Shown: positions 23,569-25,096 of the stretch, in pieces
Position numbering within the stretch: position 1 is the first letter of the stretch
Layout of the letters: each line of letters starts with the position of its first letter
Source of the DNA: Longimicrobiales bacterium
GTDB taxonomy: Bacteria; Gemmatimonadota; Gemmatimonadetes; Longimicrobiales; Gaopeijiaceae
Assembly (NCBI GenBank): GCA_958296005.1
Contig: CATQHQ010000002.1
Span: 614,501 to 678,500, forward strand
Length of the DNA: 64,000 bases
Direction: 5' to 3'
Notes under the pieces: model-generated
Databases searched by the model: none
Seen by the model: only the letters and a program-made list of their open reading frames with translations
Told to the model about the DNA's origin: nothing
Position numbers and translations under genes: made by a program

Positions 23569-23961
23569 TCAGCCGTCCAAGTCCTGGCCGAAGAGCAGGA
23601 CGTGTCCCTCCGGGTCCACCACCTCGAACTCCCGAAGTCCGTAGAACCGGTCCACGCACTCTGTTGCGGGCCATCCGACGGCCACCACCGCGTCTCGCAA
23701 CGCATCCACGTCGCTGACGTAGAAGTAGTAGGCGGACTGGGGGTGCTTGCCGTCCACCTTGGGTGCCGGCGGCACGTAGGAAGGGCTGGCGAGCATGACC
23801 GTCGCGGCGCCGTTGCCCACGCTGGCGAAACCGCTGTTGCCGATGGAGTCGTCGCGGTCACGCACCTCGAAGCCGAGCACGTCCGTGTAGAAGCGGACCG
23901 CCGCCGGCACGTCCCGGCAGATAAGGAGCGGCACCAGATCGAGGAACTTGGCAGGCCCCAC
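23569..23961 (-). CDS. VOC (glyoxalase-like) family protein
   Basis: 130 residues from GTG 23961, chosen because it gives the standard VOC length; the frame remains open upstream into a GC-rich shadow. Pattern of one glyoxalase/bleomycin-resistance fold module: LVPLLICRDVPAAVRFYTDVLGFEV, then YYFYVSDVDALRDAV and FEVVDPEGHVLLFGQ, with the C-terminal His and the Glu of FEVVDPEGH in positions that could bind metal. Substrate unknown. It lies upstream of the PQQ dehydrogenase on the same strand, about 100 bases away. Confidence 0.75.
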   Translation of the reverse strand: MGPAKFLDLVPLLICRDVPAAVRFYTDVLGFEVRDRDDSIGNSGFASVGNGAATVMLASPSYVPPAPKVDGKHPQSAYYFYVSDVDALRDAVVAVGWPATECVDRFYGLREFEVVDPEGHVLLFGQDLDG

Positions 23962-24052
23962 GGTGTTCAGGCGGCGCGGGTCATCGCCCGCCCTCCACGG
24001 CGAAGGCCAGCAGCAGGTTGCCGAGCGCGGAGGCAAAGGTCCCCGAACGCGA

Positions 24053-24095
24053 AACGCCCCCGGAGGCGCGAGAAATGCGAGCCTCCGAGGGCGTT
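24053..24095 (-). terminator. long hairpin, possible terminator or attenuator
   Basis: A 15-bp stem with one mismatch (arms 24053-24067 and 24081-24095) closes a 13-base loop. On the minus strand the stem ends GGGGGCGTTT and only a short T run follows, so it is an imperfect intrinsic terminator. It lies between the tiny ORF at 24156-24218 and the VOC gene. Confidence 0.45.
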
Positions 24096-24155
24096 GAACC
24101 GGCCGCAACCCGGCGCGATGGCCGCTTACGGCGCGAACGTTCGATCGTGATTCGG

Positions 24156-24218
24156 CTAGTTGCCGAAGCGGCGACCGCCTGCCCTTGCCGGGTTGGGCTG
24201 GGTACTTGGACTAGACAA
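24156..24218 (-). CDS. tiny ORF (20 residues) with a perfect Shine-Dalgarno sequence
   Basis: A TTG start opens 20 codons encoding a Pro/Ser-rich then Gly/Arg-rich peptide ending GGRRFGN. The ribosome site (24221-24232) reads AAGGAGGTGATC, fully complementary to the 3' end of 16S rRNA, with about 7 bases between AGGAGG and the TTG. It lies about 120 bases after the M50-type gene on the same strand and is followed by a hairpin. It may be a leader peptide, a small secreted or modified peptide, or chance. Function unknown. Confidence 0.4.
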   Translation of the reverse strand: MSSPSTQPNPARAGGRRFGN

Positions 24219-24220
24219 GT

Positions 24221-24232
24221 GATCACCTCCTT
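24221..24232 (-). promoter_or_regulatory. unusually strong ribosome binding site
   Basis: Twelve bases complementary to the 16S rRNA tail, the longest such match noticed in the window; most genes here have weak or no Shine-Dalgarno sequences. It sets the TTG start of the tiny ORF. Confidence 0.5.
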
Positions 24233-24340
24233 TTCCTGGGGTTCGACATCGGGCGGAACACCATGTCCTGCTCGAAGCCGCCGGGAGCGCAACCGCGCCT
24301 CCAGCTTGTCGCAAACGATAAGACCGGAACCGGCGTCGCG

Positions 24341-25096
24341 TCAAGCCGCCCGGTACGCCCGTCGGAACGTCAGAACGCTTACGGCGATCGCCACGGTGAT
24401 CCAGGCGATTCCCCATGTTGTCGTCGAGATGCCCGGCGTCAGCTCCGCCAGCATGGCGGCGTCGGACTGGAGGTGCGGACGGTCGAGCACGTCGCTCTTG
24501 ATGTCCAGAATCGCGTACAGACAGCTGGTCAAGCCGAGCGTGGTGAGGACGACTTGGGCTACTCGCGGTCCCAGGCGCCACCCGACTTTCGGCCCTAGAA
24601 GCCACCCGACCGCGATCAGCGCCGCCCCGAAGCCCAGGCCGAAGAAGAAGCCGAAGCCGCCTCTGACGTACAAGACCGACAACGTCACCACCGCCGCGCC
24701 CAGCAGCAGCATCATCAGCCAGCGCCAGTTGGACAGACGACGCGACCCGGCCACGGCCAACAGCGCCACGCCCCACAGCAGGCTTCCCAAGTAGCCTGCC
24801 GAGAGAGTGATGAACGCGCTTCCGCCCGGGCAGTAGCACGCGCCGCCCTGCTGCGGGTCGAGGACGATCTTCTCGATCGTGCCGCCCGTCGCGATGGAGG
24901 CGATGCCGTGGCTGATCTCGTGGGCCATGACCACGAAGATCTTCAGCGGGTAGATCGCCGGCGTCTCCCACAGATACCACAGCGCGCCGAAGTAGACCGC
25001 GAACCCGGTGAGGAAGAGGAGCTTCTCCCTGGTCCGGCCTCGTCGGGCACCGCCAGTTTCGGCAGCCTCGTATCCGTCCTGCGTCGTCGACTCCAT
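24341..25096 (-). CDS. M50-type membrane metallopeptidase-like protein
   Basis: 251 residues from ATG 25096. Six or so membrane spans. The zinc motif HEISH sits in the first part (FVVMAHEISHGIASIATGG), as in the M50B-like family of bacterial membrane proteins related to site-2 proteases. GGACYCPGG follows in a loop. A second metal ligand such as NxxPxxxLDG is not obvious; the Asp in SCLYAILDIKSD of the later part may serve. It could cut membrane segments of regulators, but no anti-sigma factor is adjacent. Divergent from the TlpA-like gene. Confidence 0.75.
   Translation of the reverse strand: MESTTQDGYEAAETGGARRGRTREKLLFLTGFAVYFGALWYLWETPAIYPLKIFVVMAHEISHGIASIATGGTIEKIVLDPQQGGACYCPGGSAFITLSAGYLGSLLWGVALLAVAGSRRLSNWRWLMMLLLGAAVVTLSVLYVRGGFGFFFGLGFGAALIAVGWLLGPKVGWRLGPRVAQVVLTTLGLTSCLYAILDIKSDVLDRPHLQSDAAMLAELTPGISTTTWGIAWITVAIAVSVLTFRRAYRAA

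Follow-up and report, generated by a model that had tools for sequence, protein, structure and literature searches.

The locus

The DNA analysed here, referred to as the window, is a stretch of 64,000 nucleotides from a Longimicrobiales bacterium. On its minus strand an M50-like ORF ends at 24341, and downstream of it on the same strand come an extended Shine-Dalgarno (SD) sequence, AAGGAGGTGATC, a mini-ORF whose 20 codons are MSSPSTQPNPARAGGRRFGN, and a G+C-rich hairpin in which 24093-24081 pairs with 24067-24055 ahead of TTT. An earlier note, which gave no strand, had reported the perfect 12-base SD, the TTG start with its 20-codon frame, the M50-type gene before the frame and the hairpin after it, and all four are present. 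As read from the sequence, the mini-ORF is part of a larger unit, a putative standalone gene for a structured RNA of ~250 nt with a promoter-like sequence and a terminator. Its parts and surroundings, in 5′ to 3′ order, are:

24339-24344, minus strand: -35-like hexamer TTGACG, a consensus match only, which shares bases with the M50-like gene's stop codon
24315-24320, minus strand: -10-like hexamer TATCGT, with the transcription start expected near 24308
24044-24308, minus strand: whole proposed RNA gene, about 255-265 nt, with ends deduced from the promoter-like site, the model match and the terminator
24103-24265, minus strand: core of the RNA, an end-to-end match to covariance model R1 (149.5 bits, E 2e-39)
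24251-24254, minus strand: GCCC box, complementary to the GGGC bulge and preceding the SD by 21-27 nt in nearly all members
24221-24232, minus strand: extended SD, exact complement of the 16S rRNA 3′ tail
24156-24218, minus strand: mini-ORF with TTG start (24218-24216), 20 codons and TAG stop (24158-24156), from the sequence and from start and stop statistics
24187-24197, minus strand: helix 1, 5′ strand, within the ORF at codons 8-11 (covariation, all 11 pairs two-sided in 100 sequences)
24181-24184, minus strand: invariant GGGC, a bulge between helices 1 and 2, from the alignment
24171-24178, minus strand: helix 2, 5′ strand, GCGGTCGC in the window and GCGATCGC in most members, pairing with the CATCGCG region
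24151-24167, minus strand: TTCGGC / GCCGAA hairpin of the apical part, its loop and 3′ arm holding the stop codon (helix 5 covariation)
24114-24121, minus strand: approximate location of the 3′ strand of helix 2, adjoining helix 1 at its 3′ edge (covariation, fold)
24104-24114, minus strand: helix 1, 3′ strand (covariation, APC-corrected scan)
24055-24093, minus strand: terminator-like hairpin, then a short T run at 24054-24052 (sequence, minimum-energy fold)

TTGACG and TATCGT, separated by an 18-nt spacer, form the best promoter-like pair that a promoter scan found upstream of the element in the window. Sites resembling a -10 hexamer lie 95-110 nt upstream of the GCCC box in the window's order and 15-18 nt upstream of it in several distant families, and at related loci similar hairpins stand 3′ of the element, often with longer T runs. 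Directly 3′ of the terminator, on the same strand, is an ORF (23569-24108) that by eye resembles glyoxalase/VOC-type proteins.

The 12-mer AAGGAGGTGATC has two copies in the 3.06-Mb genome, one at the mini-ORF locus and one inside a transhydrogenase-like coding gene, and about 0.4 copies would be expected of a random 12-mer in a genome of that size; the arrangement of SD and mini-ORF exceeds chance. Its exact complement is the 16S 3′ tail, TGGATCACCTCCTTT, as read in relatives. No 16S rRNA gene was found in the assembly of the window genome, from which, rather than from the genome, it is probably missing. Complete relatives have the 12-mer one to three times each, and each occurrence is the RNA element, a 16S gene or a chance match within a coding gene. 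A misread end of a 16S gene on the opposite strand was rejected as an identity for the locus since the window has no rRNA match.

Across 136 elements the predicted duplex of SD and 16S tail has a median energy of -24.3 kcal/mol (-26.3 to -20.6), compared with -5.8 kcal/mol for random 20-mers. This places the element well below the -13 kcal/mol taken to mark an extended SD in PMC9976891, a value that comes from another energy calculation. In the predicted fold the mean unpaired probability of the SD is 0.33, so that it is only partly free.

Distribution in Gemmatimonadota

A DNA-level search with a 201-base query located the element in 42 of 58 related genomes. In the alignment the conserved stretch includes GCCCGATGT, which lies upstream of the SD at a distance of about 23 nt, takes in the ORF and extends about 50-70 nt past the end of the ORF. 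Covariance model R1 extended the count to 213 of 395 genomes of the phylum (its score at the window's own core is high by construction, the window sequence being a member of the model, and the independent weight comes from the other genomes and the alignments). A second model, R2, detects the element in 195 of 300 genomes that are 90% complete or more and in 183 of 287 of good quality, and its matches span 80 of 118 Gemmatimonadota genera; Roseisolibacter sp. H3M3-2 is among the carriers. About a third of the good genomes give no covariance-model match, and these may reflect loss or divergence. There is nearly always one copy per genome.

Several records depart from this distribution. One assembly (G252) has two copies (C63:15678 and C26:114434) that score like members from two different genera and may be contaminated, and another (G054) has two (C76 and C103), one of them lying at the end of a contig and possibly the product of a duplicated assembly edge. 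Four copies (L103, L144, L149 and L107) are in records labelled as Gammaproteobacteria or Euryarchaeota MAGs; these are probably mislabelled or misbinned Gemmatimonadota contigs. A phage origin was rejected, a search of viral contigs having given no match to the element.

No Rfam family reaches its gathering score in the window, the best sub-threshold matches being 16.8 and 14.4 bits against gathering scores of 112 and 40, and the literature searched contained no Gemmatimonadota RNA of similar kind.

A conserved fold

Compensatory base-pair changes, the mark of a conserved structured RNA, are present in the element. Aligned by sequence alone, 39 members have two-sided changes in 14 of 26 pairs, with 72 such cells compared with 25 ± 5 in shuffles and no more than 30 in slid controls. 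When a set of 100 members is fitted to the model, 23 of the 26 pairs have such changes (315 cells compared with 87 ± 13 in shuffles) and 92% of cells are paired; as the fitting favours the model's structure, the count from the sequence-only alignment is the cleaner one. The covariation score with 100 members is 0.405, compared with 0.206 ± 0.006 in shuffles and no more than 0.068 in slid controls of that set, or 0.091 in those of either alignment. The same helices were recovered on the sequence-only alignment, and in an APC-corrected scan the strongest column pairs fall within the proposed helices. That the gene specifies a structured RNA is well supported, and we hold it with high confidence.

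Helix 1 pairs codons 8-11 of the ORF with a strand downstream of the ORF, and a bulge with a conserved GGGCA separates it from helix 2, in which 96.6% of cells are paired over 100 sequences. Helix 5 belongs to the apical part, which in the window's order has a small hairpin spanning the stop codon; over the same number of sequences 93.5% of helix 5 cells are paired and all four helix 5 pairs have two-sided changes. The minimum-energy fold of the window RNA returns helices 1 and 2 and the terminator. A start-codon hairpin in the same fold was dropped, since by eye it is absent from other families.

The GCCC box upstream of the SD is present in 134 of 136 elements, compared with 27% in shuffled upstream sequence, and its pairing with the GGGC bulge could form a pseudoknot, here a candidate one. 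The pairing gives no covariation test because both sides are nearly invariant, and no covariation was seen at a fifth base beside it.

Apparent selection for translation without its peptide

The ORF statistics come from 137 distinct sequences, one of which (L130) is a false positive, leaving 136 true elements. TTG is the start in 118, GTG in 17, ATG in two and CTG in none, and in all 136 true elements an NTG stands 5-7 nt after GGAGG. Of 135 measurable members, 134 meet their first in-frame stop at codons 14-23, mostly at 20-21, and none meets one before codon 14; the stop can be any of the three (TAA 54, TGA 46, TAG 35), and in the other two frames stops are scattered. The ORF extends into the long helix on its 5′ strand and closes in the apical region, and does not reach the 3′ strand. 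On these regularities the mini-ORF is probably translated.

The main rival to this is a purely noncoding RNA, antisense to the 16S tail, which would sequester or chaperone 30S subunits or pre-16S RNA and in which the ORF would be incidental. Many members have 16S-tail complementarity of up to 13-14 nt (AAGGAGGTGATCCA against TGGATCACCTCCTT), which is more than initiation needs and which such an RNA would account for, but the 5-7 nt spacing, the use of NTG without CTG and the near-fixed in-frame stop in three types are left unexplained by it, and we regard it as unlikely.

If the mini-ORF is translated, its product might be what matters, as in a dual-function sRNA or a small-protein gene with a 20-residue peptide (MSSxS...LARASDRRxG). 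A short ORF with start and stop, mostly of 20-21 codons, is maintained across the class, RASDRR occurs in most of the peptides and length changes are mostly of whole codons. Against this the frame carries no coding signature: the omega-like ratio over codons 2-10, from a simple pairwise count made without a tree, is 1.02, and variability at third positions does not exceed that at the first two. The recurring residues are encoded by GGGCAAGCGATCGC, a part of the RNA fold in which nearly every base is conserved, and codons 13-16 are nearly fixed at all three positions. Swaps of R and W, of S, G and R, and of D and G are common. In three members (L031, L158 and L163) the ORF is one frame out of register with the conserved RNA motif, a short ORF still being present, and in four others (L007, L012, L020 and L030) it is truncated. 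Codon statistics thus reveal no purifying selection on the encoded peptide of the sort by which small proteins and dual-function RNAs are recognized, and a functional peptide is improbable. What appears to be selected is initiation, a short run of elongation and termination, and not the peptide product. The earlier note had favoured a real small protein or a leader; translation, as judged from NTG spacing and stop placement, probably stands, the protein does not in view of the omega-like ratio of about 1.0 and the frameshifts, and the terminator and varied neighbours count against the leader. Two of the frame-shifted members (L158 and L163) keep the RNA and read ...LATGKRS..., and L158 is A+T-richer than usual (GC 0.48).

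Neighbouring genes and two further alternatives

Gene order was read around 90 loci, with proteins named from reading their translations and not from a family search. In the window's family an M50-like gene and a convergent thioredoxin-like gene flank the RNA, and in other families its neighbours are a PQQ enzyme, acyl-CoA dehydrogenases, a protein kinase and CPBP-like proteins. The M50-like gene is adjacent at about 30 of the 90 loci, all within the window's family. The earlier note had raised the possibility that the peptide is a substrate of the protease, to be checked by looking for the same peptide beside M50 homologues in relatives. The idea is not borne out, as the peptide is not conserved and the M50 linkage is confined to the window's family, other genes adjoining the same RNA elsewhere. 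No same-strand downstream gene is conserved across the 90 loci, and in many genomes the next gene is convergent. The differing neighbours, together with the promoter-like sites and the terminators, favour reading the RNA as an independent gene.

An independent, single-copy, class-wide RNA might have a housekeeping role unrelated to ribosome status, for instance as a stand-in for 6S RNA, and use the ribosome for folding or turnover. No match to Rfam 6S (RF00013) was obtained in the window genome or the element, an absence that is weak as the model found 6S in only 5 of 14 control genomes; the long hairpin with an open central bubble typical of 6S is not seen in the element, and the housekeeping role seems quite improbable. 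The remaining alternative, a leader or attenuator of a neighbouring gene such as the M50 gene or a downstream one, has leader-like anatomy to recommend it (mini-ORF, hairpins and terminator, and in many genomes of the window's family an M50 gene just upstream on the same strand), but that gene is upstream of the RNA and not downstream, and the genes that do lie downstream are often convergent and differ between families without relation to one another (thioredoxin-like, PQQ, acyl-CoA dehydrogenase, kinase, CPBP-like), which makes it very improbable.

A shared signature with rpsU

The pattern AAGGAG(N)GTGATC(N1-4)TTG has 47 matches in 58 genomes, of which 43 are RNA elements, two are at rpsU, the gene for bS21, and two are apparently due to chance, with no sign of a gene start; the backward control of the pattern gave one match. 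On this count the extended SD with TTG appears nearly exclusive to the RNA, with rpsU almost the sole other gene to have it.

Nearly all genomes of the class encode bS21 (117 of 119). In the window's family rpsU starts with TTG in all 24 cases inspected and is often behind an interrupted extended SD, AAGGAGcGTGATCgtcTTG, with a median duplex energy of -15.2 kcal/mol, between the -24.3 of the RNA and the -5.8 of random 20-mers. Of 58 rpsU starts inspected overall, 40 are TTG, 15 ATG and two GTG, with ATG frequent in other families. The window genome's own rpsU (C1:559201-559365) has a moderate SD (-11.0 kcal/mol). Because of this weaker SD and the ATG starts in other families, the link between the RNA and bS21 is suggestive and not universal.

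Proposed mechanism

The reading preferred here is of a ribosome-status RNA, in which the RNA and the act of translating its mini-ORF would do the job and the peptide would be irrelevant; we give it roughly an even chance, and regard the RNA as a good candidate ribosome sensor of a new sort. A 30S subunit with a free 16S tail would dock through a 12-14 bp duplex and initiate slowly at the UUG. As it translates, the ribosome would then unfold helices 1 and 2 together with the possible GCCC/GGGC pseudoknot and leave at the stop, having passed over the 5′ strand of the long helix without coming to the 3′ strand. The RNA would toggle between two forms, one closed and one opened by the ribosome, depending on the number of subunits with an accessible tail. 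The predicted fold, with an SD only partly free, lends no support to a docking site that is open at all times. It is also hard to see one gene titrating ribosomes without very high expression.

What is sensed could be bS21, general exposure of the tail or initiation capacity, and the choice among them is a matter of inference. The weaker proposal is that bS21 occupancy is the relevant variable, with the RNA as a sensor, competitor or buffer in a bS21 loop. It is made because rpsU shares the signature and because in Flavobacterium the extended SD of rpsU is read by ribosomes without bS21 (PMC9976891); this step is tentative. A broader scheme, equally tentative, is that a standalone phylum-level RNA reports the state of the ribosome: subunits with an exposed tail, for instance those without bS21, would dock on the perfect anti-16S sequence and translate a meaningless 20-codon frame, the fold would switch, and bS21 synthesis or global initiation would be tuned. 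The RNA would then be a sensor read by translation that needs neither a gene downstream nor a working peptide.

Relation to known systems

Leader-peptide attenuators likewise conserve the translation of a short ORF, which can refold the helices next to it, and their peptide mostly does not matter. In contrast to these, the RNA described here has no conserved downstream gene and ends at a terminator-like hairpin. The pseudoknots of S4 and alpha operon mRNA trap 30S subunits and resemble the present case in that an SD and a non-AUG start are enclosed by a possible pseudoknot, but no ribosomal protein gene follows the RNA and its own pseudoknot is only a candidate. S4 and the alpha operon are listed among ribosomal-protein mRNA pseudoknots in PMC10931766. 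Dual-function sRNAs (surveyed in PMC5521070) are likewise standalone small RNAs with an SD and a short ORF, but here no selection is seen on the amino acid sequence. tmRNA, also a structured RNA with a short internal ORF, has a tRNA-like domain formed by its 5′ and 3′ ends, which the element lacks, and a resume codon that is used without an SD, and the element has an SD and a start codon. The tmRNA model (RF00023) does not match the element, which was rejected as a tmRNA, and finds a normal tmRNA elsewhere in the genome (C2:948972, 178 bits).

The RNA is filed as a new class with features of extended-SD initiation sites and of leader ORFs, a member of neither. It is present in about two thirds of good Gemmatimonadota genomes without an Rfam entry, and gene callers would miss the locus because its ORF has 20 codons. 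It also separates selection for being translated from selection for a peptide, two things that are usually mixed.

OLE RNA binds bS21 via an SD/anti-SD mimic (PMC12054373), and the likeness lies in a conserved structured non-ribosomal RNA, an SD/anti-SD duplex and a possible bS21 link. OLE differs in having the anti-SD mimic in its own stem, in its length of ~600 nt and in being mostly from Bacillota, whereas the element described here has the SD side, a start codon and an ORF. In Flavobacterium johnsoniae and other Bacteroidota autoregulation of rpsU (PMC9976891) involves a similarly exceptionally long SD for the 16S tail, but here the long SD is carried by a structured RNA and not by the rpsU mRNA, the peptide of that RNA's 20-codon ORF is not conserved, and dependence on bS21 is hypothetical. 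Gemmatimonadota rpsU and the RNA have the extended SD (interrupted in rpsU) and UUG in common, and this shared signature, nearly exclusive to the two, makes the idea of ribosomes specialised by bS21 testable in a phylum outside Bacteroidota, with the RNA as a natural reporter.
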